Source: a virus. From it: a DNA stretch of 38,268 nt. Made by a program: the position numbers and the translations under genes. Shown in pieces: positions 8,756 through 36,083 of the stretch; within the stretch, counting starts at the first letter, position 1, and each line of letters begins with the position of its first letter. The DNA lies in the IMG/VR virus record IMGVR_UViG_3300025941_000058, positions 1 through 38,268 of that record; one strand, written 5' to 3'. The notes beneath the pieces were generated by a model that was given only the letters and a program-made list of their open reading frames with translations, was not told the DNA's origin and did not search any database.

Positions 8756-8798
8756 TAATCTCCAGCCCTTCTAAATTCTAAAAAGATTTGCTGTAAAT

Positions 8799-8913: not shown

Positions 8914-8972
8914 ACACAATACACCTTACAGCAAAGTAAGGCTATACAGCAGCCCAGAAAGGCTCCGAACAA

Positions 8973-12920: not shown

Positions 12921-13738
12921 GCGAGCCAGTCATCACTATCATAGGTGGTGGTCTTAGTGCAATCTACTCCTATTTTGGTTGCATAGATGCAGGATATAAG
13001 CCACATGAGATAGAAGTTCTCTTCCCACAGATAGAATCTGTGGTAGGTGCTATCTTCATGTATGAATCTGCTATCCCCTGGCCTCCAACCACCGTTGTGA
13101 GCATTCTCTTCGGGACGTGCGATGGCTACTCTATCAATCAGTGGGGCTATTCACGGGAAACCAGCGTCAATAAACGTTTCGCTGAAGGTGGGTTCCCAGT
13201 AATAGCCGAGAAGCTCTATATGTACGAGGAGATGAAGACTACACTATGGGGGATGATTCCCAACAAGAAACAAGTTCCAGCTCTTCCCCCAGAAACAATA
13301 GACAGCATCAAGAAGACCCGCAAAGCTGTCATCTGTACCTTCTCCAGCAAGAAAACTAAGATTGACTACGAAGATAGCGGGTATCTTACTCGCATACCTA
13401 TCCACATCAATAGACAAACTACAGATAAGCATGTAGTGATCTATAATGGTTTGCCGGAAATCCCCTGGGTGCGGCAAACCACAATTCCAGGAAAGATCTT
13501 CACTGAGTATTCCCTAGACTCGTCACCCAATGCGATATTAGCTGCGGAGGAAGTAAGAGGTAATTTCGGGGGAGAGCTAAAGTGGTCACCAGATCTTGAT
13601 CCAGAGTGTCCACCCTTAACTTGGGACGAGCGCATCGAAGGCAATCTTATACGTGTTGGTAGATTTGCCAGCTTCACACCTGGATACCTCTCCCACATGG
13701 CACAACAAGACACCAGAAAGTTTCTGAGCCAGCTATGA
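12917..13738 (+). CDS. FAD/NAD(P)-binding oxidoreductase-like protein
   Basis: A 273-residue protein starting MSEPVITIIGGGLSAIYSYF, a glycine-rich dinucleotide-binding beta-alpha-beta motif (GGGLSA). A longer frame to 12818 exists, but the ATGA overlap with the resolvase stop fixes the start. The rest matches no enzyme I know. The segment WVRQTTIPGKIFTEYSLDSSP and the C-terminal GNLIRVGRFASFTPGYLSHM, which recall an NTPase-like FAD-dependent 'amine oxidase/NAD(P) reductase' end, suggest a full FAD fold. In this operon it could act on a nucleotide or DNA base, for example next to FAD-dependent ThyX, or reduce a partner. This is inference. Confidence 0.6.
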   Translation: MSEPVITIIGGGLSAIYSYFGCIDAGYKPHEIEVLFPQIESVVGAIFMYESAIPWPPTTVVSILFGTCDGYSINQWGYSRETSVNKRFAEGGFPVIAEKLYMYEEMKTTLWGMIPNKKQVPALPPETIDSIKKTRKAVICTFSSKKTKIDYEDSGYLTRIPIHINRQTTDKHVVIYNGLPEIPWVRQTTIPGKIFTEYSLDSSPNAILAAEEVRGNFGGELKWSPDLDPECPPLTWDERIEGNLIRVGRFASFTPGYLSHMAQQDTRKFLSQL

Positions 13739-17984: not shown

Positions 17985-20605
17985 TGCCCTCACTGTCCAG
18001 CCTTATTCTCAAGAAACTGTTCACGGGAAATAACTACTATGCTATAGGCAGAAAGCGTCAGGACGACAACGGCAAGTTCCATACCATGTACAATCCTGTT
18101 ATGGAAGCTCCCAAAGAGACTACGGTAGAAGCTCATCTCTCAGGTGATTACGCGATTGGGGCATATACACTACGGCAAGACAACACCGTTCTCTGGATGT
18201 GCTTTGACGTAGATAGTATCGAGCTTTCCAAAGCTAGGGATTTTACACTGAAGCTATCCAATCTCTTGCAAGATATTCCCCACTCTATAGAGTTCTCTGG
18301 CGGCAAGGGCTATCATGTATGGATCTTCTTTAGCAAGCCAGCTCCAGCCGAGAACGTAAGAGCCTTAGCTGTGGAGATGCGGGAAGCTATAGGCGCAGAC
18401 ACATCAGGTGATACGCACGTAGAGATCTTTCCCAAGCAAGATAAGCTCACTGATAGCAATCCACTAGGTAATCTAGTCAAAGTACCTTTGGGACTTCACC
18501 CCGTAACAGGTGCGAAAAGCGTATTTGTACTTCCCGACGGTGGCTGGGAAGAGGGTATCATACAAGATCCCTTTCGTAGCTTAGAGAAGTTCACAACACT
18601 GGAAGACTTTGCTTCCTGCTTACAAGGCTATGAAAATCCGTTTGACGTCATCGTAGCATCTCTATCAGGTTTCTGGGTAGAAGGACAACGGCACGACCTA
18701 GCCCTCTTCCTGTCGGGTTGGCTGGCTACAGCAGGATGGGATGAGGAAGACGCTATAAAGGTCATAGAGCAGCTTAATTCTGTAGCTGGCGGTGATCTAT
18801 ACAACCAGAAGCAATGTGTTACGGATACCTACCAGAAGCATCGTGACGGTGGTCAGGTCTTGGGCTTGCAAGCTCTTACAGATAGACTACCTGGTACAAT
18901 CATCCGCAAGCTGGCTGATGCGATATCCAAGCAAAATGTGACACCCATCATGACCTTGTTGGACAGGATAAGGTTAGGAAAGGGCGTCACCTATCTCAAG
19001 AGTCGGAGTGCGGCAACAACAGTCCTATCTTACCTCAGAGAGAAAGGCAGGGTCGTCATAGATACAGCTACAGAAAAGCTCTTCTGGCTAGACAAGACCA
19101 GTCATCAGCTTCACAGCATGGAAGATAGCTATTGGGATTCTATCCTCTATAATACCTTTGGTCTTAATACTTCAGATAGCTTCGGGATCTCCACCGCAAA
19201 GGGCGTCTACCATAGCGCAAGGGAAAGCGCATCTAAGATCAAGGCTTACAACCGTAGCTATTGGGATGGCGAAAAGCTCTTCATCAACTTAGGTAGTTCC
19301 TACAACTATGTAATATCGGGTGAAGATAGCTATGCAGATGTCTGGGGCAACAAGCATCTTAACGGGGAAGAGGATATAGTCTTCCGCAATAGGGACAGCA
19401 GTTTACACCTAGATTTAGATGTAGCAAGGGATAAAGGGATTAAGGCATTGAATCCCTGGAACTTTTTAGTGAATGACCTCAGCTTTGGTATCGGTTCTAC
19501 GGGCGTGAGTCCTGGTCAACAGAAAGAGCTCATCAAGGCTTGGTTCCTAAGTACCTTCTTCCCCGACATCATGCCTACCCGTCCCTTGCTCACCATCATT
19601 GCTGATCCTGGTGCTGGCAAGACTACGGCAGCCCGTAGATTCCTATACATACTGGAAGGCCCACACAGTAACGTCAACGGTGTACTGGCAGATAAGCCAG
19701 ACAGCCTTCGGGCTACGATGGGCGCACACAAGTTCATAGTATTAGATAACCTAGAAAAGAACAAGAGCTATTGGCTCGTAGATATGCTGAACCGCATATC
19801 GACAGGAACCCACATTGAACTTCGTAAACTGCACACAACCAACGAAATCCAGAGAATACTTCCTGATTGCTTCGTTATCATCACAGCAACGAGCTTACCA
19901 TTCGCAGAGGAAAGTCTTTTCACACGGCTCTTACCGATTGAGCTTGCAGCAATCAAGAAGCCAACACCAGAGTATTCCATGCAGAACAAGATCCTCCACA
20001 ACATTGACGGCATCTGGATGGGAATTCTGGATATGCTCAACAAAACGGTGGCAGAACTTCGTAGGGTTAAGACAGCCCCCGCTCCTACAGAAAGCCGACT
20101 TGCTGACTTTACTGTTTTCTGTAGTCGTATTCGGGGGATGCACAATGGGGCGGATGGCGTCATAGATGGCGAGCTGCTGATCAGAGGCCTGGAAATGATG
20201 ACCAACCGCCAGAAGGTCTTGCTGCACGAATCCAGCCCAATGATAGCTATCCTAGATATATGGCTCAGGGAAGATCAAGTCAAGAGCGACAAACTATCAG
20301 AGTCTACGAAGTGGCATACGGCAGGAGAGCTGAACGGGATGTGGCAACAGATAGCGTCAAGGCTACACTACCAATGGATCTGGGAAAGCGGTCAATCCCT
20401 GGCTAAACACATCCAAGCTCTGGAACCCAATCTTATCCGTAACTACGGAATGGAAACCGTTCCGGCAACCAACAACGCTCCGAAGAAGTATAGGTTCATA
20501 CAGAACATGGTAGATTTCAGTGAGCAAGGGGAAGAAGACAAACGTATAGACGAGGCAGAAACTGAAGGCTACACAATAGATCTAGATAGATTCCAGGAGG
20601 AATAA
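17984..20605 (+). CDS. AEP-type primase fused to AAA+/SF3-like helicase
   Basis: An 873-residue protein. The start at 17984 is set by the TAATG overlap with the polymerase stop and the GAGGTGG upstream. The N-terminal domain is an archaeo-eukaryotic primase of the TOTE/prim-pol group: MCFDVDSIE (D75, D77) is the metal pair and SGGKGYHVWIFF (H111) the sHxW motif. The C-terminal half is an AAA+ ATPase: Walker A IADPGAGKTTAARRFL near residue 545, Walker B IVLDNLE near 590, and sensor-like IITATSLP near 635, as in SF3 replicative helicases. It would synthesise primers and unwind DNA at the fork for the polymerase beside it. Confidence 0.88.
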   Translation: MPSLSSLILKKLFTGNNYYAIGRKRQDDNGKFHTMYNPVMEAPKETTVEAHLSGDYAIGAYTLRQDNTVLWMCFDVDSIELSKARDFTLKLSNLLQDIPHSIEFSGGKGYHVWIFFSKPAPAENVRALAVEMREAIGADTSGDTHVEIFPKQDKLTDSNPLGNLVKVPLGLHPVTGAKSVFVLPDGGWEEGIIQDPFRSLEKFTTLEDFASCLQGYENPFDVIVASLSGFWVEGQRHDLALFLSGWLATAGWDEEDAIKVIEQLNSVAGGDLYNQKQCVTDTYQKHRDGGQVLGLQALTDRLPGTIIRKLADAISKQNVTPIMTLLDRIRLGKGVTYLKSRSAATTVLSYLREKGRVVIDTATEKLFWLDKTSHQLHSMEDSYWDSILYNTFGLNTSDSFGISTAKGVYHSARESASKIKAYNRSYWDGEKLFINLGSSYNYVISGEDSYADVWGNKHLNGEEDIVFRNRDSSLHLDLDVARDKGIKALNPWNFLVNDLSFGIGSTGVSPGQQKELIKAWFLSTFFPDIMPTRPLLTIIADPGAGKTTAARRFLYILEGPHSNVNGVLADKPDSLRATMGAHKFIVLDNLEKNKSYWLVDMLNRISTGTHIELRKLHTTNEIQRILPDCFVIITATSLPFAEESLFTRLLPIELAAIKKPTPEYSMQNKILHNIDGIWMGILDMLNKTVAELRRVKTAPAPTESRLADFTVFCSRIRGMHNGADGVIDGELLIRGLEMMTNRQKVLLHESSPMIAILDIWLREDQVKSDKLSESTKWHTAGELNGMWQQIASRLHYQWIWESGQSLAKHIQALEPNLIRNYGMETVPATNNAPKKYRFIQNMVDFSEQGEEDKRIDEAETEGYTIDLDRFQEE

Positions 20606-20805
20606 TGGTCAGCGAAGAAGTACGTGAAGCAATCCTTAAGATGAAAACAGGTGAGTTCAGCATCTTTTTCCGACTTCTCATGCAAGAACTGGAGGTGAGT
20701 CGTCATGCGTCGTGCGAGCTACAAACTCTGTTGATTCTGACGGCAGACCCCATCCTATTTGACGTAGTCCTATCCAAAATGCCGAAGGAGAAGGTACATG
20801 AGTAA
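20605..20805 (+). CDS. Small unknown protein
   Basis: A 66-residue, mostly helical protein (REAILKMKTGEFSIFFRLLM). The start overlaps the primase-helicase stop (TAATG) and has an excellent GGAGGAATA site, so it is surely translated. No family recognised. It is the last gene of the replication operon before the lysin. Confidence 0.7.
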   Translation: MVSEEVREAILKMKTGEFSIFFRLLMQELEVSRHASCELQTLLILTADPILFDVVLSKMPKEKVHE

Positions 20806-22708
20806 ATGGATTCACGGTGTACATGATACAGACGGTAGCAATCTAATGTCAGATGAGCCAGGATGGATCGTAGTCACGGAAGCTATCGGGTGCGATCCCA
20901 AAGATCATACAAGCCGTGACTACTCGCAATGGTCAGATAAGGGCTTCAGCATTTTGGTGCGTCTTAACAATGGCTATTCTCCTGCGGGTACGATACCAAG
21001 ACCAGAGCAATATGATGACTTCGCTACCAGATGCGCCAACTTCGTAGAGGCTAGTAAAGGTATCTACGCTGTGATCATAGGCAACGAGCCAAATCATGCA
21101 AATGAGCGTCCTCATGGCTTACCTATCATTCCCACGCAATATGCGAAGTGCTTTAATCTGTGTTACATGAAGATCAAAAATCTTCGCAAGAGCGTCTTAG
21201 TCCTCCCTGCTGCCGTCGCTCCGTGGGACGCTACCACAATCTACTCTGGGAATTCTCTAGGAGATTGGGTGATTTACTATATAGATATGTTAGATTCCAT
21301 CTACATCTGCGATGGCATCACAGTTCATACCTACACTCACGGAGCTGATCCAGCTCTCATCACTGACGCCAAGAAGATGAATCCACCCTTCCAAGATAAG
21401 TTCTACAACTTCAGAGCTTACACTGATTTCCTACGAGCTACTCCTACGAGCTTAAAGCATCTACCCGCTTTCATCACAGAAACAGATCAAGTAGAACCCT
21501 GGTTAGATGTTAATCGTGGATGGGTTCAGCGAGCGTATGAAGAGATCGCTTTCTGGAACAGCTCTAGGGATCTTCCCAAGATCTATGCTCTATGTCTGTA
21601 TAGATCCAATGCAGATGACCAGTGGAGCTTCAAAGATAAGAAAGGAGTTCAGAGAGATTTTATGGATGCCGTAGAAGTAGGACACCAGATCCCAGATGGT
21701 GGCTTCACACCTCCAATCCAACCACCAGTCCAACCACCCAATCCTGGCCCCACCCCTCCTCCATCTCAGGATAGATATATAGATCCTGATCTTATCCGGA
21801 GGGGAGTTACCTTCGCTTTCGCTACCCCTCCGAAGGGTGTAGCCTACTGGAAGATCGTAAGAGCTGAGTGGTATGACGAGGAAGAAGCGGATCAAGCAGG
21901 ACCAGATCACCATATCTTTGGCACAGTGAAGCAGAGCGGGAAGCAAGTAGCTGGCGTCGTATTTCAGGTGACGTGGCCCTCCGGCAGCACAGAGGTCATA
22001 TCAAAGAACGAACAACGTCTGGTGAATTATAACTATGACTATCCCATGAGCGCATCCCTGAATGAGTTCACCATCTGGATCAATGATCTAGTCCAGTCTG
22101 ACTCAGCAGCGGGGATTGGAATGGGGAAGGACGGCAATCCCAGAATTCACACTTCCACAAGGATAGATTGGGAATGGACTATCTCTTCGGGAAGTGAAGA
22201 ACCCATCACACCACCCATCGTAATCCCACCCACACCCGTTCCCAACGTGAAGTTAGTTCATCCGCTCTCTGGTGCGTGGATCACACAACACTTCTACCAG
22301 AATCCAGAAGACTACGCACGATTTGGGTTGATAGGACATAACGGTACGGATCTTGGCGGGAAAGAGCAGAACACACCAGTCTTATCAATTTGTGATGGTG
22401 TTGTAGCATTTTCCGGTACGGATGTAGATTACGGGAACTATGTTCGTGTGAAGCACAATCAGGAAGATATGATCTGCTATACGATGTACGCCCATCTTTC
22501 AGAGCCTGGCCTCGCTGAGGGTGTAGTCGTAAGAGCTGGAGCGGTGATTGGGAAGTTGGGGATGACAGGAAATGCGACCGGAGTACATCTACACCTAGAA
22601 GTTAGATTGATGCGGCGGGATGGTACATATCGTGATGACACCCCCATGTCGAAGGGACGTGTAGATCCTGAGAGCTTCTTCGCTGAGCGTGGGTTGAAGA
22701 TAGGATGA
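20798..22708 (+). CDS. Modular lysin: glycosidase-like domain plus M23 endopeptidase
   Basis: A 636-residue endolysin candidate. Residues 1-300 resemble a clan GH-A (beta/alpha)8 hydrolase: VIIGNEPNHAN near residue 93 gives the acid/base Glu after Asn, and FITETDQVE near 227 the nucleophile Glu. A Pro-rich linker near 310 (PPIQPPVQPPNPGPTPPPS) leads to a 140-residue middle domain of unknown fold (possibly wall binding), a second Pro linker, and a C-terminal LytM/M23 Zn-endopeptidase (from about 485): GHNGTDLGG near 513 (HxxxD) and HLHLEVR near 597 (HxH). It would cut both glycan and peptide bonds of the wall. No signal peptide is visible, so a holin or similar is needed; two small membrane proteins follow. 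Confidence 0.85.
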   Translation: MSKWIHGVHDTDGSNLMSDEPGWIVVTEAIGCDPKDHTSRDYSQWSDKGFSILVRLNNGYSPAGTIPRPEQYDDFATRCANFVEASKGIYAVIIGNEPNHANERPHGLPIIPTQYAKCFNLCYMKIKNLRKSVLVLPAAVAPWDATTIYSGNSLGDWVIYYIDMLDSIYICDGITVHTYTHGADPALITDAKKMNPPFQDKFYNFRAYTDFLRATPTSLKHLPAFITETDQVEPWLDVNRGWVQRAYEEIAFWNSSRDLPKIYALCLYRSNADDQWSFKDKKGVQRDFMDAVEVGHQIPDGGFTPPIQPPVQPPNPGPTPPPSQDRYIDPDLIRRGVTFAFATPPKGVAYWKIVRAEWYDEEEADQAGPDHHIFGTVKQSGKQVAGVVFQVTWPSGSTEVISKNEQRLVNYNYDYPMSASLNEFTIWINDLVQSDSAAGIGMGKDGNPRIHTSTRIDWEWTISSGSEEPITPPIVIPPTPVPNVKLVHPLSGAWITQHFYQNPEDYARFGLIGHNGTDLGGKEQNTPVLSICDGVVAFSGTDVDYGNYVRVKHNQEDMICYTMYAHLSEPGLAEGVVVRAGAVIGKLGMTGNATGVHLHLEVRLMRRDGTYRDDTPMSKGRVDPESFFAERGLKIG

Positions 22709-22712
22709 TGAT

Positions 22713-22964
22713 ATGATCACATATCTACCCTGGTACGTAGAACTGTGGATTGCCTTCACATTGGGGACGTTGATCTTAATGACAGGATTGTGGATCTCTG
22801 AGGTGAGGGCTGGAAGATATGATCCTACTATCTTCGATCTGGAAGGAGATGATGATACTAGACGGGATTTCATCTTCCAACCACCTGACGCTGATTACGG
22901 CAACCCAGTCATATCAAATAGGAAGCGCAGCGTATATGATCTTATAGACGCTGGGAAAGATTGA
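22713..22964 (+). CDS. Single-span membrane protein, lysis cassette
   Basis: An 83-residue protein with one N-terminal transmembrane helix (WYVELWIAFTLGTLILMTGLW) and a charged, acidic C-terminal tail. Located four bases after the lysin gene, so it is a candidate holin or spanin-like lysis accessory. An AGGATGATG site precedes the ATG. Topology and function are inferred from the position. Confidence 0.65.
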   Translation: MITYLPWYVELWIAFTLGTLILMTGLWISEVRAGRYDPTIFDLEGDDDTRRDFIFQPPDADYGNPVISNRKRSVYDLIDAGKD

Positions 22965-22968
22965 GGGG

Positions 22969-23151
22969 ATGATTAGGATTATGATTGCTGCGGAGATCAT
23001 GTCGTTGATGGGAGCTGCTGTATTGGGATCTATACTATTGGATTGGTGGGTTCGGGAGAGCAGGATCATATGGTGGAAATCTTGGCTACTCTTCATATTT
23101 ATGGACGCTTTGATCTTGTATATTCTATGGAGCATCTTGGAGGTAATATGA
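22969..23151 (+). CDS. Holin candidate
   Basis: A 60-residue protein with two hydrophobic segments (IAAEIMSLMGAAVLGSILLD and WWKSWLLFIFMDALILYILW) joined by a short charged loop. That is the size and shape of a class II holin. It follows the lysin and a single-span membrane protein. GAGGGG directly touches the first ATG, so the true start may be the ATG at 22981 (MIAAEIMSL). Its stop overlaps the next ATG (ATGA). Confidence 0.6.
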   Translation: MIRIMIAAEIMSLMGAAVLGSILLDWWVRESRIIWWKSWLLFIFMDALILYILWSILEVI

Positions 23152-23417
23152 TTGGACACGAAGATATGATTAAATTGATGGAACTAGCTTCTGCGTTTGT
23201 GATGATAGCTTCATGGAGGGCGGGAAAGCTACGGCCAGAAGACAAGGAAATCATAGACGCACACGATGCGATTGTATCTGGAGTTGGGGATGCTGATTTC
23301 GTGAACCGTGTAGAGATGGCAACGGGAAGGAACATCCGTGACCAGATATCTGTGGAAGGATTGGAAGAGCTAGGTCGTGAAGTTAAGTTACTGAAGATGG
23401 GGAATGCGAGGAACTGA
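23148..23417 (+). CDS. Unknown helical protein
   Basis: An 89-residue protein (MIGHEDMIKLMELASAFVMI) whose start overlaps the holin candidate stop (ATGA), with GGAGG four bases upstream. A longer frame to 23043 lies wholly in the holin gene and is rejected. The helical, charged sequence (DHAIVSGVGD-like middle, and QISVEGLEELGREVKLLK end) is not recognised. Confidence 0.68.
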   Translation: MIGHEDMIKLMELASAFVMIASWRAGKLRPEDKEIIDAHDAIVSGVGDADFVNRVEMATGRNIRDQISVEGLEELGREVKLLKMGNARN

Positions 23418-23806: not shown

Positions 23807-24153
23807 GATGGGGTGGTAGGTTATTGTGGGGGGTTGTAGCGTGGCGGTAAGCTGTGGCGGGGCCACAATTGCACCCAAACGCCGTGTAGCGTGGGCGTTT
23901 GGGTGCGTTGCGGGGCAAAGTAGTGTATACCTACGTGCGGCGCATGTAAACCGCTATAAACAGGGTAAAACTGATAAATTCTGCAAAATATCGAAAAATT
24001 TTATTAAAATACAGACTAAATTGGAATATATTATGGCGGGAACGTCGAAAAGTAAAACCAAAAGTTGCGGTTTGGGCAAAATAAGGGAATGAAAGGGATT
24101 AAGGTATTGTTTTGTCGAAAATTTTTTCGTAAATATCGGAGATGGGTCGGATC
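23807..24153. other. Intergenic region left of the island
   Basis: 347 bases without a convincing gene. Positions 23808-23973 are G-rich and contain no GA or TC. They carry a perfect 13-bp hairpin, GCACCCAAACGCC (23871-23883) against GGCGTTTGGGTGC (23894-23906). From 23974 to 24153 GA/TC returns at normal density and the sequence is AT-rich. A 19-codon frame at 24033 has no clear ribosome-binding site. TAAGGTATTGT at 24100-24110 recurs twice inside the island. Confidence 0.7.
23871..23906. repeat. Perfect 13-bp inverted repeat
   Basis: GCACCCAAACGCC, a 10-base loop, then its exact reverse complement. It lies 65 bases after the last gene of the lysis cluster and could end or stabilise that transcript, but there is no T run on either side. 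Confidence 0.6.
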
Positions 24154-24498
24154 GGCGTAGCGGTTATGTAAAGCTGCGCAAAAATGCCGCAAGTACCTAA
24201 GCAAATTGCACCCGCTGCGCAGCAAAAGCTGCACACGCCGCAAACGCACCCGCACGTTTTATACGCCGTGCAGCACCGCTATATGCACCCGCTGCGCACC
24301 GTGCGGCGTGTTTAATACACTTTGCACAAGCACGCCGCACGCCGCACCTGTACACAGGCACGCCGTACTGCACAGCGGCGTATACGCACGGCGTGCTGCG
24401 CACAAGCACTATGCGCAAAGTGCAGCACGGTATAGTAAGGCAATAAGGTATTGTATGTGCGCAACTTTTTTGCAACTTTTGCTGCAAAAAAAGCAAAT

Positions 24499-24612
24499 AA
24501 GGTATTGTAAGGCAAAGTATTACACTTTGTATTATTTGCAGTACCATATACACCTATAACCTACACCAAATAATTATAACCTTTGTATAACCTTATTACC
24601 TTACAATGCCTT
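24499..24612. repeat. AAGG(T/C)ATTGTAAGG inverted repeat pair
   Basis: AAGGTATTGTAAGG at 24499-24512 and, inverted with one mismatch, CCTTACAATGCCTT at 24599-24612. TAAGGTATTGT occurs also at 24444-24454 and, outside the island, at 24100-24110. Possible protein-binding sites. Confidence 0.5.
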
Positions 24613-26300
24613 ACTTACACCTAAAAAAGTTGCACAGCATATTACTACACGCAGTACAGCAATACCATACAATACGGTACTGCGCACAAGCTTTGCGCAA
24701 AGTGCGTACTATGTGCCTGTGTGCCGTACCTGTGCAGCACCCTATACCATACACACCATACATACACACCATACATACACAAACACACAGCGTATAGCAA
24801 ACGTATATTGTGCAAAATACTACAATTAACCTATTACCCTATAAAGCACCTAAAAAGCACCCAAAAACACCCTATATACACAGCACCTATACCCTATACC
24901 TACACAACACACAAAAGTATGTGTGTATTTATTATAGGTGCAGCACACCACACCACACCACACCAAAAATTGCCAAGTATTGTTGGCAATATGCATACTA
25001 TACAACACCTATATGCTTTGCCTGTGTATTAAAAGTTGCACCCGCACGCCACACCTATACACCTATAAATACACCCGCAACTTTTGCTGCACCCTAAAAA
25101 GCAACTTTTTACAAAAAAGCTGCAACAATAATTGTGCAACTTGGCAATTTTTGGCGCAAAGCTTATACAAAAGCTTGTACAAAGCTTGTAAAAAAGTGCT
25201 TTACATAACGCTTTACAGGTGTATTTGCAACTTGGTTTGCCGTAAAGCTAAAATAGCTTAAAACTTTTGCGCAATTGTAAGCTTTTGTTAACATATGCAC
25301 TTATATACTATGTATAGGTGTGCTTAGTTGTACCGCACTTTAAGTAACACACCGCACCACCACACACCGCACAGTACCGTACAGCACCCGCTGTATGGCG
25401 CACTGTACCGCTACGCCGCACAGCGTACCGTACAGCGTAGTGTGTAGTGCATAAATAGTACACGTTACAAAAATGGCGTGTAGTTGCGGGTGTATTGCAC
25501 CTTAACAAATAAATAGCTTTGCAAACTATGTGCGTTAAAGCACACAGTGCCTTGTTAAACTAAGTACAAGCTGTTATGTACGCCGCTGCAATACCAAGCT
25601 GCACGGCGTAAGCTATTACCAAGCACAGCACGCAGCACACACCGTAACGGGTGCGTGCAATTGCGTGTAACGTAGCGGTGTAAGTGCGGCGTACAGTAAA
25701 ACTGTACAGCACCCGCACCCGCAAACAAAGTGCCTTAAAATACAGCGTTATAAAACCTAATGCGTAAAGTGCAGCGGTGCGTGCCTGTTTGGTACACAGG
25801 CACACCACACCGCACCCGCACGCACGCACACCACACCAAACACGTACCAAGTAAGCCATACGGTATAAACGCAATTGCAGCAAAGTTGCAGCGGCGTGCA
25901 GGTGTAGTGCAGCGGCGTGCGGTGTATGGTATGCACACCAAGCTTAAAACACAGTGCAGGTGTAGTAATACACCTTAAAATAGTTGCAACTAAGTAAGCA
26001 CCACACAGCTATATAAATACACGCTGTGCGGTGCTGCACAAGTTGCGCACCATTGCGTGCTTTACAGCGTGCCTGTATAGTGCCTGTGCATAACCTGCAC
26101 CGCACTATACCGCACGCTGTAATAGCAAAGGTGCGCACGGTAATTGCAGCGGTATGCTATACGCAAAATTACAGCGGTGTTACACGCTGTACGTGCGGCG
26201 TAAATTATGTGTACAGCTAAGTGCAAAACACGCAGGTACAGGTATACGTTACGTTACAACACACATTAATTTTTAGTGCGCAAAGCTATTTTAGGTTTTA

Positions 26301-26318
26301 ACCTGCACCCGTGCAGGT
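26301..26318. repeat. Short perfect hairpin
   Basis: ACCTGCAC, loop CC, GTGCAGGT: eight perfect base pairs inside the island. Confidence 0.55.
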
Positions 26319-26401
26319 ACGCATACAATAAGGTTATGCGTATAAAGCACGGTGCATAGTTTGCACACCGCACCATACCGTGCGGCGTAGGCAAACACAG
26401 T

Positions 26402-26439
26402 ACCTTATACGGTGTGCCTTACAGTACACCGTATAAGGT
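26402..26439. repeat. Perfect 14-bp hairpin 1
   Basis: ACCTTATACGGTGT (26402-26415), 10-base loop, ACACCGTATAAGGT (26426-26439). It lies two bases before a second hairpin of the same arm length. Together with the terminator at 26531 they form a structured leader ahead of the island genes. Confidence 0.65.
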
Positions 26440-26441
26440 GC

Positions 26442-26481
26442 GCAGCACGGCGTGCTTATATATAAACGCACGCCGTGCTGC
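26442..26481. repeat. Perfect 14-bp hairpin 2
   Basis: GCAGCACGGCGTGC (26442-26455), an AT-only loop core TTATATATAA, and GCACGCCGTGCTGC (26468-26481). A very stable GC stem with an easily melted loop is also what some replication or recombination sites look like. Confidence 0.65.
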
Positions 26482-26530
26482 AAAGCACCATACACAGCAC
26501 AGCACAGCACCCGTTATAGCTATTGTAAAG

Positions 26531-26552
26531 CACCGCACTGTGCGGTGTTTTT
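26531..26552 (+). terminator. Intrinsic terminator or attenuator before the island genes
   Basis: CACCGCA, loop CTG, TGCGGTG, then TTTTT (26548-26552). It stops transcripts coming from the left, 40 bases before the first island frame, or acts as an attenuator in its leader. Confidence 0.6.
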
Positions 26553-26591
26553 AGTACCTATAACACCATAGCAAAGGCAAAGCAAAACAGT

Positions 26592-27020
26592 ATGCAAAAC
26601 ACACGCCGCACCACACAGTACACACGCACCCGCACGGTACGCCGCACCACACAGTACACGCAGTACAGCACCATAAATAAAACTACGCTGCACACGCAGC
26701 ACAGCGTGCTGCACCTGCACACGCCGCTGTATGGCAAAGTACAGGCACACCAAACACGGCGTGCCTTGCACGGTGCTGTACGCACACCACGCACACCTGT
26801 ATGCACCCGCTGCGCAGCACACGCACGCTTTTGTGCGTGCTTTGCGTGCAGTACTTGCGCACGCTGCACCCGCACCATTGCACCGCTGCAAATAGTTGTA
26901 AACAGCTATAGTTGGTTTGTGCCTGTGCAGCGGCGTACCGTAAAGCACAGCACGCCGCTGCAATACGTGCAGCACCCGCTGCAAAGCACCACACAACACC
27001 CGCTGCACAAGTATTTATAG
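26592..27020 (+). CDS. Possible island gene A (142 residues, no acidic residues)
   Basis: Frame starting MQNTRRTTQYTRTRTVRRTT. It is included because it has the same leader as the two better island genes (ACCATAGCAAAGG, 14 bases before the ATG) and lies directly after a terminator. It has no Asp or Glu, as the DNA rule demands, is rich in Thr, Arg and His and has a cysteine-rich stretch near residue 85-110 (CTRCAAHARFCACFACSTCA). Long frames arise easily in this DNA, so it may be spurious. Its opening resembles that of island gene C. Confidence 0.35.
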   Translation: MQNTRRTTQYTRTRTVRRTTQYTQYSTINKTTLHTQHSVLHLHTPLYGKVQAHQTRRALHGAVRTPRTPVCTRCAAHARFCACFACSTCARCTRTIAPLQIVVNSYSWFVPVQRRTVKHSTPLQYVQHPLQSTTQHPLHKYL

Positions 27021-27033
27021 CGGGTGCTGCGCA

Positions 27034-27564
27034 ATGGCAAAGCAAAACGCAAACCAAGCACGCACGCTGCGCAAACAGCGTGCAGCACGCCGTGCTGCAC
27101 CCGCACCCGCACAAGCACCTATACCACACCGTGCAGCGGGTGCAGCAAAGGCACGCAGCAAAGCAAAGCAAGCACAGGCACGCTTTTTAGCAAAGCAAGC
27201 ACGGTACGCCGCAAGTAAAAAAGCGTACCTACGTGCGCAGGCACTTACTATGCACGCACCCGCTACACCGCACAGTAAAAAGGCACGCAGCACCGCACCA
27301 CGCATTAAAACAGGCAAACTAAACTTAGCTTTGCTGCAATACACGCACCTGCAATGGGCAATAGGTGCTGCACGGTACACACACACACCGCACACCATTG
27401 CAGCATACCAAGTTGCTTATAACAGCACCACACAAACAGCTTGGTTTTACGCACCCGCACGCAGCGGTAAACAGGCACACCATTTTAACGTGTACTTAGG
27501 TGCAAATAGCTTTACGCCGCACCTGCACAATTACACGTTTGTAAAGTGGTTAAAACTTTTTTAA
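27034..27564 (+). CDS. Island gene B: basic protein without Asp or Glu
   Basis: A 176-residue frame starting MAKQNANQARTLRKQRAARR. Residues 1-85 are Ala/Lys/Arg/Gln-rich with AP repeats, like a DNA-binding or virion-internal basic tail. Residues 90-176 look like a folded domain with alternating strands and aromatic residues (LNLALLQYTHLQWAIGAARY, then AWFYAPARSGKQAHHFNVYL). It has no acidic residue, and Ser uses only AGC/AGT. Stop is TAA. The ribosome-binding site is weak (GGGTG), so it may be coupled to gene A. A varied, protein-like C-terminal half is the main reason to trust it. Family unknown; a search with the last 90 residues would test it. Confidence 0.62.
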   Translation: MAKQNANQARTLRKQRAARRAAPAPAQAPIPHRAAGAAKARSKAKQAQARFLAKQARYAASKKAYLRAQALTMHAPATPHSKKARSTAPRIKTGKLNLALLQYTHLQWAIGAARYTHTPHTIAAYQVAYNSTTQTAWFYAPARSGKQAHHFNVYLGANSFTPHLHNYTFVKWLKLF

Positions 27565-27603
27565 CAGCACCACACCACACCATACAGCAAAGGCAAACAC
27601 ACT

Positions 27604-27780
27604 ATGTTTAGGTACAGTACACGCCGTAACACGTACACCACACCGCAAACACGCCGCACTACACGCACAGCGGCGTACACAGCACGCCGCACCACACAGC
27701 ACGCCGTGCCTTTAATATGTAAGGCACACCATGTACACGTACCGTACACGTACCGCTACACGCTTACAGGCACGCACTAA
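27604..27780 (+). CDS. Island gene C: 58-residue Thr/Arg-rich protein
   Basis: A short frame starting MFRYSTRRNTYTTPQTRRTT with ACCATACAGCAAAGG ten bases before the ATG, nearly identical to the leader of gene D. It ends TLTGTH before TAA. No acidic residues. The leader and position between genes B and D support it. The composition follows the island vocabulary, so the protein itself is not convincing alone. Confidence 0.42.
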   Translation: MFRYSTRRNTYTTPQTRRTTRTAAYTARRTTQHAVPLICKAHHVHVPYTYRYTLTGTH

Positions 27781-27859
27781 GCACCCGCTGCACGTAGTTG
27801 TATATAAGCATACCAAGCACGCCGCACGCACCCGTGCGGTACTGTTTGGTGTGCCTGTT

Positions 27860-27879
27860 ATGCAATAAACGTATTGCAT
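27860..27879. repeat. Perfect 8-bp hairpin between island genes C and D
   Basis: ATGCAATA, loop AACG, TATTGCAT, followed by TAAAA. It could be an operator for gene D or a weak terminator of gene C. Confidence 0.5.
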
Positions 27880-27932
27880 TAAAACGCTGCACCACGCAGC
27901 ACAAAACACCATACAGCAAAGGTTAAAATACA

Positions 27933-28442
27933 ATGCCTACCCAAAACAACACCCGCACCGCAAACAGCACCCGCACAGGCACGCAGCACGCCGCACCCGC
28001 ACCCGCACAGGCAAAGGCACAAGCTGCACCCGCTGCGCAGGTACAGGTACAAGCTGCACCCGCACCCGCTGCGCAAAACACAGCACCTATTGCAGCTTTG
28101 CAAAATAACGCATTAGGGCAATACGCACTGTACGCACAGGCACAAGCACAAAAGCAAGCACAGCACGCCGCACAAGTTGCAAACGCAACTTACACGCTTG
28201 TAAAACCAAGTAAAGCAACTTTGCAGCGTACACCCGCAAAAGGCAATACACAGGCACAAACTAATGCGCAGTACGCCGCTGCAATTATGCTGCAACTTGT
28301 ACCATTAGTTGCGGGTGCAGGTTTAACACCTGCGCAGCACGCACAGGTGCAGCACGCTTTGCTGCAAAGCATACACACGCTGCAAACTAGTGCAGGTATT
28401 GCACCCGCAAAACAAGCTGTGTTACAGGTGCTTGGTAAGTAA
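27933..28442 (+). CDS. Island gene D: Ala/Gln/Pro-rich protein without Asp or Glu
   Basis: A 169-residue frame starting MPTQNNTRTANSTRTGTQHA with ACCATACAGCAAAGG 13 bases before the ATG. Residues 1-100 are a low-complexity AP/AQ-rich segment. Residues 100-169 form regular amphipathic helices (NAQYAAAIMLQLVPLVAGAG, then TPAQHAQVQHALLQSIHTLQ). A strong intrinsic terminator begins 30 bases after the stop, which makes this the best-supported gene in the island. It has no acidic residue. The family is unknown. The elongated N-terminus recalls scaffold or virion proteins, but this is only a visual impression. Confidence 0.72.
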   Translation: MPTQNNTRTANSTRTGTQHAAPAPAQAKAQAAPAAQVQVQAAPAPAAQNTAPIAALQNNALGQYALYAQAQAQKQAQHAAQVANATYTLVKPSKATLQRTPAKGNTQAQTNAQYAAAIMLQLVPLVAGAGLTPAQHAQVQHALLQSIHTLQTSAGIAPAKQAVLQVLGK

Positions 28443-28471
28443 CGCACCACGCAGCACCACGCAGCACAAAC

Positions 28472-28504
28472 AGGCACGCCGCACACAGCGGCGTGCCTTT
28501 TTTT
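28472..28504 (+). terminator. Intrinsic terminator after island gene D
   Basis: AGGCACGCCGC (28472-28482), loop ACACA, GCGGCGTGCCT (28488-28498), then a run of T to 28504. An 11-bp GC-rich stem and a T tract, made wholly of permitted dinucleotides, so the island genes have a regular transcription end. Confidence 0.9.
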
Positions 28505-28713
28505 GTGCCTACGCTGCACAGTATACGCATATGCGCATATACAGCACCACACAGCACCCGCACGGCGTGGTGCGCAGCACAGGCACACACAGCACACCGC
28601 TGCACCCGCACAGGCACGCCGTAACGCACCGTGCGCAGCACAACACCCGCTACACCGCACCCGCTACACGCTGCGCAGCGGTACACCACACCACGCAGCA
28701 CAGCACCCGCACC

Positions 28714-28804
28714 GTATATGCGCATATACCTACTATACACACCTGCGCACCTGCGCATATACCTACTATACGCATATACCTACTATACGCATATAGCTAT
28801 TATG
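28714..28804. repeat. Palindrome and 17-bp tandem repeats (iteron-like)
   Basis: The 16-base palindrome GTATATGCGCATATAC (28714-28729) overlaps a first copy of CGCATATACCTACTATA (28721-28737). Two exact copies follow in tandem (28754-28770, 28771-28787), then a degenerate copy, CGCATATAGCTATTATG (28788-28804). Such arrays bind initiator or partition proteins. The array ends 68 bases before the island's right edge. Confidence 0.8.
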
Positions 28805-28881
28805 CGCACCTGCACCGCTGCACCCGCACGCACCCGCACCCGCTGCGTGCGCAGCACACCACGCCAAAGCAATCCGATGGA

Positions 28882-28978
28882 CAGATCAGAGCTTTGTGGC
28901 TGCCGTAGCTTGCCGCCAGATCAGACCAAAACCTACGCCAGATGGGAAGTAAAAACCCCGCCAGATCAGAGCTTTGCC
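28882..28978. repeat. Direct repeats at the island's right edge
   Basis: CAGATCAGAGCTTTG occurs at 28882-28896 and 28964-28978; CCAGATCAGA also near 28918. These contain GATC and GA and begin ten bases after the last island base. The stretch 28979-29077 has AT-rich inverted pieces (ACAATTTT and AAAATTGT) and leads to the next gene. Confidence 0.6.
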
Positions 28979-29077
28979 CCACAATTTTGCTACAAAATCC
29001 CAAACAATTTTGTGGTAAAATTGTAGTGCAAATCAATCGGACAGACCAAGCTAAACCAAAATCAGAAAGGCACTAAA

Positions 29078-29362
29078 ATGCAACAAGAAGCGCAACCCAC
29101 GCCAGAGCGGAACTACAACACACTTTCAGATGGTACAAAAGGTGTGTTAGAGGAATTCCGAGACGAGGTATATGAAACTCATGGCATGGTAAATCGCAAG
29201 TACAATATCATGGTAAACTTGTTTTACCATATGATGTACGAACTTACACTTGCGATTGATCCGACAGATGCGGGTTGGGAAGAGGAAGACGAGTTCATAG
29301 CAATACACAATAAGATTGCAGAACTTCTTAACTACCAACGCCCCTACCCATCTGAAGACTAA
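29078..29362 (+). CDS. Unknown acidic protein
   Basis: A 94-residue protein (MQQEAQPTPERNYNTLSDGT) with AGAAAGG eight bases before the ATG. Helical middle (MVNLFYHMMYELTLAI) and acidic C-terminus. First gene right of the island, with ordinary GA-rich codons again. Family not recognised. Confidence 0.72.
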   Translation: MQQEAQPTPERNYNTLSDGTKGVLEEFRDEVYETHGMVNRKYNIMVNLFYHMMYELTLAIDPTDAGWEEEDEFIAIHNKIAELLNYQRPYPSED

Positions 29363-29380
29363 GCGTTAATAATCACAAGC

Positions 29381-29418
29381 TACGGCACAGCACACTATGA
29401 TCAGAGTGGTGTGCCGTA
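29381..29418 (+). terminator. Intergenic hairpin of the TACGGCA type
   Basis: TACGGCACAGCACACT, six-base loop, AGAGTGGTGTGCCGTA: 16-bp stem with two mismatches. No T run. One of a set of similar intergenic hairpins (29992-30038, 30858-30895, 33027-33063). Confidence 0.5.
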
Positions 29419-29480
29419 TGTTGTGCGGATTAACAGCACACCAACAATCATACCTACCAAAGTTCAGAAAGGCTACTACA

Positions 29481-29972
29481 ATGTACCAAGATTTATGGGT
29501 TGCAACAGATGGGATCACCACTGTGCGCTTTTCAGACCGCCAAAGTGCAATAATCTACTGCGCTGAAACGGGATGGGATGAGCAAGCCCTTTACATCATC
29601 CGAACGCAAGTTACGGTAGATGCAGATGGCGCAATCATACCAGATGTATGGCGCAGTAGGATGGACCCAGATGTGGATTGCGAGAACGCTGGCACATGGA
29701 CAGATGACCATCTTGTGTTCATACCGCCAGCGCACAGCATGACCGACCCGCAAGACCAATCGATAGATGATGAGCCAGTAACAATTAATCCTAGTTACTT
29801 GCACAAGATTGGCACAGCATCAGAACGGTTAGGTTGGAATTTCAGAGACCTGGCGGCACGCACAACTGAAATTCAGATGCAGGTTTTTACCTACCTACAA
29901 GATTGTGATGCAAAGAATAAGAAACCCGTACTACAAGAAATTGAGAAAATCGTAGGGGTGTACGCCAACTAA
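29481..29972 (+). CDS. Unknown protein
   Basis: A 163-residue protein. The start at 29481 (MYQDLWVATDGITTVRFSDR) is set by AGAAAGG nine bases upstream; a longer frame to 29397 runs through the hairpin and is rejected. The first 100 residues look beta-rich and acidic, the last 50 helical and basic. Family not recognised. Confidence 0.68.
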   Translation: MYQDLWVATDGITTVRFSDRQSAIIYCAETGWDEQALYIIRTQVTVDADGAIIPDVWRSRMDPDVDCENAGTWTDDHLVFIPPAHSMTDPQDQSIDDEPVTINPSYLHKIGTASERLGWNFRDLAARTTEIQMQVFTYLQDCDAKNKKPVLQEIEKIVGVYAN

Positions 29973-29991
29973 TCTGAAGCACTAGCACATA

Positions 29992-30038
29992 GTACGGCAC
30001 ACCCATCCCATGCAAGATATAGGATGGGTGGGCCGTAC
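29992..30038 (+). terminator. Intergenic hairpin of the TACGGCA type
   Basis: GTACGGCACACCCATCC (29992-30008), loop, GGATGGGTGGGCCGTAC (30022-30038): 17 pairs with one mismatch. Ends are the same as in the other hairpins of this region, while the inner part differs. Confidence 0.55.
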
Positions 30039-30091
30039 CAATGTACAGATTAGTACAGCAACCACAATCATAAGTAAGAAAGGCGAAAAAA

Positions 30092-30580
30092 ATGCCAACT
30101 CCGAGCAAGCGTAAACAGATTGCTGAAATTCTGAAACAGCATTACGGCAATCAAGTAGATACGCCCAATCCGAAGCAACAGGCAAACTACGAAGCGCACA
30201 AAGCTGCATCAGAATTCTCTCACGGCTTTTACCAAGATTGGGATTATCTGGTCGGAATGTACGCTGGCTACTACGTGATACGTGTAGCAAGAGATGTTCG
30301 GACAGATCAAGATGCACGAGAAAATGAATTCGTAGCATTCAGATTGTATTACGGCATCTTTTCCTTCACAAATGAAAATGGGACTTTCAAAATCCCAACT
30401 CATTCTAGCGGCGTAGGCGGTAAAACGCTAGAAGATTGCTTAAATGCAATCTGCTACCAGATTGGCTATAACGCAGCCTATCGTAGTGGTAACTTAGGAT
30501 TGTGGCAGCGCAGATTGCCCGCCCACCTCCGACAGGAACCGCAACAACAACATCCCTACTCAATTTCAGAAAGGTTTTAA
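30092..30580 (+). CDS. Unknown protein
   Basis: A 162-residue protein (MPTPSKRKQIAEILKQHYGN) with GAAAGG seven bases before the ATG. The N-terminus is basic and helical, the middle aromatic-rich (YVIRVARDVRTDQDAR), the C-terminus Gln/Pro-rich. No family recognised. Four bases later the next gene starts. Confidence 0.68.
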   Translation: MPTPSKRKQIAEILKQHYGNQVDTPNPKQQANYEAHKAASEFSHGFYQDWDYLVGMYAGYYVIRVARDVRTDQDARENEFVAFRLYYGIFSFTNENGTFKIPTHSSGVGGKTLEDCLNAICYQIGYNAAYRSGNLGLWQRRLPAHLRQEPQQQHPYSISERF

Positions 30581-30584
30581 TCTT

Positions 30585-30836
30585 ATGAATTACGTATTGC
30601 AATGGTCAGCAACGGGAGAAGGATTCCCAGAAGTGGAAACCTTCACAAAGTTGTTGCCAGCTCTCATAAGATTGCAGCAACTTGCAAATGAGTCAGATGG
30701 TGTAACTTTCGTAGCCGATATATACTTAGATACGCAAGACCATGATGGGCAGATACACGAGATCGTATTTTTCAATCTCAGTCAGGGCTTCCAATTCGAA
30801 GAGCAGATAGCAGACTTCATACAGTATGTAGGCTAG
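30585..30836 (+). CDS. Unknown small protein
   Basis: An 83-residue protein (MNYVLQWSATGEGFPEVETF) with AGAAAGG 11 bases before the ATG. Alternating strands and one helix. The predicted pattern is a small alpha/beta fold. Family not recognised. Confidence 0.66.
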   Translation: MNYVLQWSATGEGFPEVETFTKLLPALIRLQQLANESDGVTFVADIYLDTQDHDGQIHEIVFFNLSQGFQFEEQIADFIQYVG

Positions 30837-30857
30837 ATTAAGATACTTGTGCGGGGT

Positions 30858-30895
30858 ACGGCAAGAAAAGACTATCATGACTATCCTTGCTTGCC
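30858..30895 (+). terminator. Intergenic hairpin of the TACGGCA type
   Basis: TACGGCAAG (about 30858-30866) pairs with CTTGCCGTA about 20 bases on, around a direct repeat of GACTATC. It follows the stop of the previous gene. Confidence 0.45.
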
Positions 30896-30967
30896 GTATC
30901 CACTAGCGTAAAGTCGCTGGATCCTACGGGATGGCACTATCTTAACAGTTCTCAGAAAGGAACTACA

Positions 30968-31195
30968 ATGGCAGAAAAGTATATCCTGCTCTCCACAACC
31001 AACGGCAAAGAGCCTAAGATGTGGGAACATGGCGCACAAGCCCGTCTGAAGACATATATGGATGGGATGGTGCGTGGGCTTCTGATGGCTGGCTACAAAG
31101 AACATATTGGCTTCAGAGGCGCAAGGGTTATGAAAAAGGATGACATTACCATTGAAATCTCTATGATGACCTTAACAGAATGGAAGGAACTTTAA
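30968..31195 (+). CDS. Unknown small protein
   Basis: A 75-residue protein. The start at 30968 (MAEKYILLSTTNGKEPKMWE) follows AGAAAGGAA at good spacing; an upstream ATG in the same frame lies within the hairpin. Basic, with RGLLMAGYKEHIGFRGARVM in the middle. Family not recognised. Confidence 0.66.
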   Translation: MAEKYILLSTTNGKEPKMWEHGAQARLKTYMDGMVRGLLMAGYKEHIGFRGARVMKKDDITIEISMMTLTEWKEL

Positions 31196-31197
31196 TC

Positions 31198-31266
31198 ATG
31201 GAATTCGTACTTCTAGCAATCGTGTTCGTACTTTGCCTGTATCTTGCAGGTAAAATCAACAACTAA
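31198..31266 (+). CDS. 22-residue membrane peptide
   Basis: A very short frame, MEFVLLAIVFVLCLYLAGKI plus two Asn, starting two bases after the previous stop, with GGAAGGAA ten bases upstream. It is one hydrophobic span with an acidic head and basic tail, so it would sit in the membrane. Such micropeptides are common in phages and often modulate host or lysis proteins. The clear ribosome-binding site supports it. Confidence 0.58.
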   Translation: MEFVLLAIVFVLCLYLAGKINN

Positions 31267-31287
31267 CCAAGCTCAGAAAAGCCAATC

Positions 31288-31590
31288 ATGAAAATCACAA
31301 ATGTAGATGACCTGTATCAAGGTCAGACGTTGTACAGCACGCAAACGATGGGAAGCGACCGCCGCCCTCATCGTGCCAAGATTACAAGTATGCGCTACGT
31401 GAGATCACAAGGACAGATCGTGATCACACTAAAACATGGTCTGTACACTTGGATCAGGGTTCCTGAAAGCGATCTAGCGGAATGGGATACGAGTGAGAAT
31501 GATGCTCTTGCTGCCGTAGCTTTGCTACAGAGCAAGAAACTAGAGCGCAAAGCTAGATTGCTGATGCAGAGCGCACTACAAAACAGATAA
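31288..31590 (+). CDS. Unknown protein
   Basis: A 100-residue protein (MKITNVDDLYQGQTLYSTQT) with AGAAAAG before the ATG. Beta-rich first half (AKITSMRYVRSQGQIVITLK), Leu/Lys-rich helical C-terminus. Family not recognised. An ATCCTAAAA / TTTTAGGAT hairpin (31610-31639) follows. Confidence 0.68.
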   Translation: MKITNVDDLYQGQTLYSTQTMGSDRRPHRAKITSMRYVRSQGQIVITLKHGLYTWIRVPESDLAEWDTSENDALAAVALLQSKKLERKARLLMQSALQNR

Positions 31591-31609
31591 GACGCAAGTT
31601 GCAATCGAG

Positions 31610-31639
31610 ATCCTAAAATCACAATGTTGCTTTTAGGAT
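31610..31639 (+). terminator. Intergenic hairpin
   Basis: ATCCTAAAA (31610-31618), 12-base loop, TTTTAGGAT (31631-31639). An A-T-rich stem, with T in the right arm only, so a weak terminator at most. Confidence 0.4.
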
Positions 31640-31695
31640 TTCGGGTGCAGATTGCTGCGCTAAAAATCACTACCAGATCAAGAAAGGTCTAAATC

Positions 31696-32229
31696 ATGTC
31701 TATCTCCAAGAGCGGTATCATCGCAACGTCCATCAAGAACGAACAAACCTATCAAGAGGAGAAGCGTCAAGATTGGATGTTCACCAAGAAGGTGCTGCGT
31801 ACTTTCCTGGAGGATCTGTTCCCCGAAGGCACGACAATCTACTGCGGAAGCGGTAGCATCACAATTCGTGTTCCCTGGGGCATCAGCAATCTTCAGCAAG
31901 CACGCAAGGCGATGGGATCGGGTTGGAAGTTCTCATCTAACTACACAAGTGCAGATGGGACGCTAACCAAGAGCTATCACAAGTACGATGATGGGACGGA
32001 CACGTTGGAATACGATATGAATAGCTACGTGCGACGTTCATACGTTGGCTTGTCGCTCATCATGGATGCAGGTAAGTTGGATCCTGATACCTGCAAGCGC
32101 ATCGAGGTTGGTGAAAAGACCTATACGCAGAAGATTTACCAAATTATCTGCGAGGATGGTGTCAAGGAGATGCTCGGCAAGGCAGAAATCATGGATGATC
32201 CTTCCGGCGCAGTAGAATTAGCATCCTAA
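31696..32229 (+). CDS. Unknown protein
   Basis: A 177-residue protein (MSISKSGIIATSIKNEQTYQ) with AGAAAGG ten bases before the ATG. Two predicted alpha/beta parts; YCGSGSITIRVPWGISNLQQ is the most distinctive piece. Family not recognised. After it comes CATCAGCA-7-TGCTGATG (32247-32269), a perfect 8-bp hairpin. Confidence 0.68.
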   Translation: MSISKSGIIATSIKNEQTYQEEKRQDWMFTKKVLRTFLEDLFPEGTTIYCGSGSITIRVPWGISNLQQARKAMGSGWKFSSNYTSADGTLTKSYHKYDDGTDTLEYDMNSYVRRSYVGLSLIMDAGKLDPDTCKRIEVGEKTYTQKIYQIICEDGVKEMLGKAEIMDDPSGAVELAS

Positions 32230-32246
32230 GATAGCATAGCAGAGAG

Positions 32247-32269
32247 CATCAGCAATCCCCCTGCTGATG
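32247..32269 (+). terminator. Intergenic hairpin
   Basis: CATCAGCA, seven-base loop of mostly C, TGCTGATG. No T run behind it. Confidence 0.4.
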
Positions 32270-32343
32270 TAATGCGCCCATCACCTGATGGCTGGCCTCA
32301 AGTCCAGATTGCATTAAAATCTAATCCCAGAAAGGGTTAAATC

Positions 32344-32448
32344 ATGGAATCGCCAAAAGTTAGCGTTAAGATCGGGGGATGCTTCATCTTCTTTCTGATC
32401 GCAAGTGTCTTCCTCATGTTAGTATTTCTCACAATTTTGTGGAGCTAA
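32344..32448 (+). CDS. 34-residue membrane protein
   Basis: MESPKVSVKIGGCFIFFLIA followed by SVFLMLVFLTILWS: a short charged head and one transmembrane helix. AGAAAGGG lies eight bases before the ATG. It is too short for a family call. Like the peptide at 31198 it is a lone membrane span in the right arm. Confidence 0.6.
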   Translation: MESPKVSVKIGGCFIFFLIASVFLMLVFLTILWS

Positions 32449-32450
32449 TC

Positions 32451-32744
32451 ATGAAAAAGACCTTCAAAGCCAACAAAGGGCCAGGAAAGCGAGCTACGCT
32501 TTGCATTGAAGAGCGGTCTTACAAGACCAAAGCAGATCGCAGACGTGCTATGACCATCTTGGATCGCTACTGGCGCAAGCGTGGATTGGCTACCATCACA
32601 ATCTTTACGCTAGGCAACGATGATGACGGCAACCCACGCCTCTATATGGCGAGATGCTGGACACGGGAAGAGCTGGCTTCTGCCGGACTCACACCTGAGG
32701 ATGTTAACTATTCTAATATCATGTACAATTGGAGATCACAGTGA
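32451..32744 (+). CDS. Unknown basic protein
   Basis: A 97-residue protein. The start at 32451 (MKKTFKANKGPGKRATLCIE) has GGAG seven bases upstream, two bases after the previous stop. The N-terminal half is strongly basic, the second half has YMARCWTREELASAGL. A longer frame to 32379 overlaps the previous gene and is rejected. Its stop overlaps the next GTG start (GTGA). Confidence 0.66.
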   Translation: MKKTFKANKGPGKRATLCIEERSYKTKADRRRAMTILDRYWRKRGLATITIFTLGNDDDGNPRLYMARCWTREELASAGLTPEDVNYSNIMYNWRSQ

Positions 32745-35868: not shown

Positions 35869-35875
35869 GATTCAA

Positions 35876-35918
35876 TTGGCTATTGTAGGTAGGCTATACG
35901 CTTACCTACAATAGCCAA
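35876..35918. repeat. 19-bp inverted repeat
   Basis: TTGGCTATTGTAGGTAGGC (35876-35894), five-base loop, GCTTACCTACAATAGCCAA (35900-35918), with one G-T pair. Lacking a T run, it could be an operator, an RNA structure or a replication-type site. First of two large inverted repeats in this 215-base gap. Confidence 0.75.
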
Positions 35919-35942
35919 AATCGACCCTATACCCAACGTATT

Positions 35943-36018
35943 ACCCTACGTTTAGCCAAGCAAAAGTCATTTATGTACTTACCTACGCAAAAGATTTTTG
36001 CTTGCTTAAACATAGGGT
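35943..36018. repeat. 26-bp imperfect inverted repeat
   Basis: ACCCTACGTTTAGCCAAGC plus AAAAGTC (35943-35968) pairs with GATTTTTGCTTGCTTAAACA plus TAGGGT (35993-36018), with about four mismatches and a 24-base loop that contains TTACCTAC, also found in the previous repeat. The right arm holds the -35 box of the promoter at 36002. Confidence 0.7.
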
Positions 36019-36031
36019 AAAACCCTATAAA
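36002..36031 (+). promoter_or_regulatory. Candidate promoter for the 36084 gene
   Basis: TTGCTT (36002-36007), 18 bases, TATAAA (36026-36031), 53 bases before the ATG. Lies inside the arm of an inverted repeat, so binding of a protein there would block it. Confidence 0.45.
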
Positions 36032-36083
36032 CAATCTTGTACAACCTTTGTATATGGTTCACATTTCCCAGAAAGGAAAGCCA

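Follow-up and report, generated by a model that had tools for sequence, protein, structure and literature searches.

Among the described systems closest to the locus reported here are phages of the Iggyvirus/Queuovirinae group (Iggy and Knedl), for which a dinucleotide GA motif is likewise reported: Olsen 2023, as cited in PMC11008142 and PMC11945000, states in its title that dPreQ0 in this lineage comes with "a single GA motif." Knedl, a Pseudomonas phage of this lineage, has dpdA together with queuosine-pathway genes, and GA/TC is its outlying dinucleotide, at 0.79 genome-wide. The Knedl minimum lies at the divergent early promoter region (0.2 to 0.29 in 1-kb windows), and GA/TC is depleted relative to AG/CT in its intergenic DNA (P = 0.011). 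In seven of 15 DpdA phages, GA/TC drops below 0.62 of expectation in some 1-kb window, and in none of them does AG/CT fall that low; this is supportive rather than proof, as some of the free runs are low-complexity coding DNA and minima depend on genome length. A clear depleted locus was seen only in Knedl and Shewanella phage S0112. In the latter, a sparsely annotated region (19440-23254) has GA/TC down to 0.35 of expectation, with GT/AC also low, and is possibly a parallel case.

In the thymidine-hypermodified phages (M6, ViI, and phi W-14), the hypermodified T prefers TG/TC (PMC6449724). M6 has no GA/TC-free runs (longest, 51 bp). Short words are also purged through selection in phages that avoid restriction sites, and the T5 first-step-transfer and conjugative leading regions are special segments that enter the cell first. 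We know of no described element that excludes a dinucleotide strand-symmetrically over kilobases while its sequence is replaced, and our text searches, with partial coverage of the literature, found no kilobase-scale exclusion of this type.

The stretch analyzed here ("the window") is an IMG/VR virus record of 38,268 bp. Its clade, which carries the rule described below, consists of uncultivated bacterial viruses from soil. The features that define the island and its left edge are as follows.

24154 to 28872, no strand: GA/TC-free island of 4,719 bp with 0 GA and 0 TC, at the same place in relatives.
24135 to 24154, plus strand: conserved left-edge motif ATCGGAGATGGGTCGGATCG, with the last GA/TC before the island, from an alignment of five relatives.
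24184 to 24200, plus strand: conserved sequence ATGCCGCAAGTACCTAA just inside the left edge, at the start of a short MPQVP... frame.

An earlier note had claimed that this interval contains neither GA nor TC where several hundred would be expected, and our recount gives zero of both against approximately 565 sites predicted from base composition. The island is bounded by a TC at 24152-24153 on the left and the next site at 28873 on the right, and the number of runs of this kind expected by the same count has a −log10 of approximately 272. AG, CT, CA, TG, and GC are all common within the island, as the note had it. The next-longest GA/TC-free runs in the whole window are only 172 bp (8785-8957) and 166 bp (23807-23973), and both proved relevant. 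The note's description of flanks that are normal to the last base holds on the left, where GA/TC is normal or high up to approximately 23800 and is followed by the 166-bp free stretch, approximately 180 bp with sites, and then the island; it fails on the right, where GA/TC is reduced and recovers over 3 to 4 kb. Rfam and tRNA searches of the island gave no credible match, and a nucleotide search of a phage collection gave none.

A DNA polymerase search recovered five relatives (79 to 87% identity), and a terminase search recovered further contigs. With contigs oriented alike, the island lies directly after the same operon in each polymerase-found relative. It is fully clean in G004 (4,782 bp), has three sites over 4.6 kb in G003, and is strongly depleted of GA/TC in G002. 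The G008 contig starts within the island, of which it has 2.2 kb with one site, G001 covers 787 bp up to the contig end (one site), the G005 contig is cut off at the island start, and the G006 contig ends within it. Between members, the islands have almost no alignable DNA, whereas the genes flanking them align well and most proteins are 45 to 98% identical; the GA/TC rule is thus kept while the sequence turns over. An assembly artifact was considered and is ruled out by the GA/TC-poor island at the same place in separately assembled relatives. The proposal that the island is a mobile element from a genome with such a rule is not supported, as we found no presence/absence variation at the site, the island being in place in every member that covers it; shared genes and the conserved left edge also speak against it.

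The rule has a definite taxonomic reach. TerL relatives at approximately 50% identity (G011 and G012), which are too distant for gene-content comparison, have no GA/TC-free runs, and the rule therefore belongs to a clade with at least approximately 78% TerL identity. No comparable GA/TC outlier was found at 72 control loci of at least 10 kb from more distant primase relatives, and a scan for the left-edge motif matched clade members and loci without GA/TC-free runs. A scan of a genome collection recovered neither a host nor a prophage. Contigs also tend to end in the island or within approximately 40 bp of it (G001, G002, G004, G005, G006, and G008), with 7 of 16 ends by tally (binomial P of approximately 3 × 10−4), a clustering that may reflect strain variability or real DNA ends.

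Outside the island, the rule recurs at noncoding sites and fades across a coding region.

8786 to 8957, no strand: GA/TC-free divergent promoter region between the structural and replication operons.
23808 to 23973, no strand: GA/TC-free stretch past the replication-operon stop, seen in all relatives covering it, with one site in G002.
35869 to 36047, no strand: right-arm intergenic promoter region, with 7 sites in the window against 20.6 expected.
28873 to 32500, plus strand: right-hand shoulder, depleted of GA/TC at synonymous positions too and recovering with distance.

The divergent promoter (142 to 172 bp) is GA/TC-free in nearly all members (approximately 18 contigs), the exceptions being G002 and contig L242, with two free runs of 54 to 57 bp each. 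The sigma70 consensus −35 box, TTGACA, contains GA; the boxes found here across the clade (TTGCGC...TATACT-like and TTTACA) are sigma70-like and without GA. In the window, they read TTGCGC ... TACACT rightward (8885-8913) and TTTACA leftward (8827-8822). The stretch beginning at 23808 includes a minus-strand promoter-like site (23950-23922), and the right-arm intergenic region is fully free (178 to 179 bp) in G001, G006, and G008.

The shoulder is one-sided, with GA and TC both depleted to the right of the island in the window, G001, G003, G006, and G008 and no depletion to its left. At the second-third codon position, GA/TC is at 0.48 in the first 1.5 kb and 0.62 in the next. We looked for the same exclusion across ordinary sequence of the relatives and did not find it. 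In the ordinary genes of the left arm, the dinucleotide is not avoided, codon junctions included (GA, 1.03 to 1.07; TC, 1.07 to 1.08), a result more in keeping with a local effect than with cleavage.

Within the island, coding and noncoding DNA obey the rule alike, as had been claimed: genes A and B together (1,041 bp) have 0 sites against approximately 121 expected. The genes that bear on this point are listed here.

27034 to 27564, plus strand: island gene A, 176 aa without Asp or Glu, with relatives in G003 (309 aa) and G004 (243 aa).
27933 to 28442, plus strand: island gene B, 169 aa without Asp or Glu, 64% and 46% identical to its relatives in G003 and G004, respectively, and also present in G008.
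28472 to 28498, plus strand: terminator-like hairpin with a T run, after gene B.
30092 to 30580, plus strand: ordinary gene C, 162 aa with 7 Asp and 9 Glu, outside the window island, with a relative inside the G004 island.

Proteins A and B lack acidic residues because GAN codons are unavailable under the rule. Gene C provides a direct comparison, as its island-resident relative in G004 (33% identity) has no Asp or Glu against the 16 acidic residues in the window's copy, those positions being taken by Ala, Gln, Asn, Thr, and Leu. The rule is thus set by where the DNA lies, against the needs of the protein. Upstream of gene B, the window has a GA-free Shine-Dalgarno (SD)-like AAAGG, while the SD-like site of B is the sole GA across 2.1 kb in G008 and one of the island's three GA/TC sites in G003. 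Protein A had no match among viral contigs, a profile search with gene B returned two already known contigs, and AlphaFold models were too poor for use (pLDDT of 46 for the protein encoded at 12911-13738 and 50 for the gene B product).

The G002 island departs from the rule in one context. Among its 68 GA sites on both strands, 55 are GCNGA; of 91 occurrences of GCNG, 55 have A as the next base, compared with 0 to 5% in other contexts (P = 3 × 10−58 by Fisher's test). The divergent promoter of G002 shows the same tendency, with two of three sites being GCNGA (P = 0.018). GCNGC is missing from the G002 island (0 versus 26 expected) and occurs 105 times in the window island and 113 times in that of G003. 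The exemption looks like the recognition context of an enzyme, differing between lineages.

Taken together, GA/TC-free DNA probably marks what must escape an enzyme acting at GA/TC. The earlier note was right that the DNA rather than a single RNA is kept clean, since depletion affects GA and TC equally and extends to promoter DNA that is not transcribed. Our leading reading, held tentatively at slightly less than an even chance, is that a base modification targets GA/TC and that regulatory and early DNA must stay unmodified. A sequence-specific activity, presumably phage encoded, would mark the phage DNA at every or nearly every GA/TC; the modified bases would be tolerated in ordinary coding DNA and damaging in regulatory DNA, and selection would hold promoters and, above all, the 4.7-kb island free of the dinucleotide. 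In this reading, the island would serve the genome as a hub for early and regulatory functions. A related picture, which we regard as possible and slightly less secure, is that one dinucleotide splits the genome in two: coding DNA that bears GA/TC and is marked, and approximately 5 kb of regulatory and early DNA that is not. An undescribed activity that modifies or silences at a two-base site would enforce the split, its context differing by lineage (all GA in most, all but GCNGA in one).

Bacterial RNA polymerase is reported to be blocked when promoters contain bulky modified bases, and T7 RNA polymerase to be little affected by phage-type modifications that lie outside the promoter (PMC11550810). 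Small 7-deazapurines are reportedly no obstacle to the bacterial enzyme, and promoters might therefore still work with dPreQ0 itself. Modification alone explains neither why genes A and B are clean nor why the shoulder extends over coding genes, and a further assumption is needed, possibly that the whole early domain is read first by unaltered host machinery. If GA/TC is the modification site, the islands map where phage DNA must stay unmodified, and how hypermodified phages keep their promoters working becomes directly testable. As Knedl suggests, GA/TC-free runs may also offer a sequence-only route to phages with motif-specific DNA modification.

The earlier note's suggestion of a DNA-modifying enzyme that must not act here is also our leading reading, although our searches found no such enzyme. 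The TGT-family/DpdA search had no match in six members, using a TGT model that also misses known DpdA phages; Knedl DpdA as a query matched Iggy and RHEph04 and nothing in G000 (the window) to G005, which are incomplete records. GA-poor regulatory and early DNA is a trait that the clade shares with Knedl, rather than an established criterion of DpdA phages. The clade differs from the Iggy group in that no multikilobase clean island occurs there and the Knedl depletion is mild genome-wide. With the thymidine-hypermodified phages, the clade may be compared through a divergent ThyX-like gene adjoining a dUTPase_2/NT5C-like (nucleotidase-like) gene, with a Rossmann-like protein also present, but no 5hmdU DNA kinase was recognized in the clade. 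No DNA methyltransferase common to the clade was found. In G001 only, the small-terminase region has a Mom-like gene next to a ParB-like one (the pair at L013:14026-14886 and L013:14846-15409, both on the minus strand); the Mom-like protein matches 8bv8, the methylcarbamoylase Mom, by phmmer (E = 4.7 × 10−4). All six members have a GT4-like glycosyltransferase gene near the tail genes (window, 3-737, minus strand; G001, 24831-25973, minus strand).

An explanation based on order of entry, which the earlier note had also raised, is that the DNA goes in left edge first and is hit on entry by a nuclease or defense of the host that acts at GA/TC, until early phage proteins stop it, so that selection fades with distance from that edge. 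A first-entering segment of the T5 or conjugative type could yield a one-sided gradient, and the sharp left edge, the conserved motif there, the shoulder, and the clustered contig ends all agree with it. We nonetheless consider it unlikely: GA/TC-free promoters lie far away, one of them midmap; the GCNGA exemption of the G002 island also applies in its promoter; and the contig ends may merely reflect local strain variability. Moreover, the G001 and G008 contigs combine into a circular map and the closest terminases are those of T4-like phages (26 to 28% identity), which points to packaging by the headful, with no set end to enter first. The clade also differs from the T5 and conjugative regions in that a dinucleotide rather than words of 4 to 6 bp is involved.

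Avoidance of a host nuclease with a GA/TC core, irrespective of entry order, appears improbable. The clade does purge restriction-like words genome-wide, and islands lack word sets of their own (CGCG, 0/42 in the window island). Such avoidance, however, hits coding and noncoding DNA alike, and a nuclease would not spare coding DNA: CCSGG is purged everywhere, whereas GA/TC reaches or exceeds its expected level throughout the ordinary genes, at synonymous positions too. The primase and nuclease readings of the earlier note likewise leave the untouched coding DNA elsewhere without explanation.

Mutational erosion seems less probable again. TC-preferring deaminases exist, and one acting on exposed DNA (promoters and the island) could convert TC/GA to TT/AA faster than the sites re-form, with a strand-symmetric and local effect. 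The island, however, has no clear surplus of the products (AA, 0.93; TT, 1.31), the acidic residues of gene C were not replaced mainly by Asn or Lys, and GA survives as GCNGA in G002 and, in both G003 and G008, at the SD-like site of B, a pattern that argues for selection. Cutting of early transcripts at GA/UC by an RNase would fit a right shoulder that follows gene direction, but it is very improbable given that untranscribed promoter DNA obeys, that the leftward leader adjoining 8786 contains GA and TC, and that the two dinucleotides are equally depleted. A compositional accident of a repetitive region with a limited vocabulary has next to no likelihood and is refuted by the independent islands, since these are all repetitive and lack further words, yet their vocabularies differ, they barely align, and only the GA/TC rule is common to them and to unrelated promoters.

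The set of missing words differs between members, the islands of the window, G002, G003, and G004 each lacking extra words of their own, e.g., CGCG, GGCC, CCWGG, and CAG/CTG. Genome-wide, CCSGG is absent or strongly depleted in all six members (0/22, 1/43, 1/30, 6/34, 3/23, and 1/26), and TCGA is low across the clade (about 0.35 to 0.45); the scarcity of these two words is ordinary avoidance of type II restriction sites.
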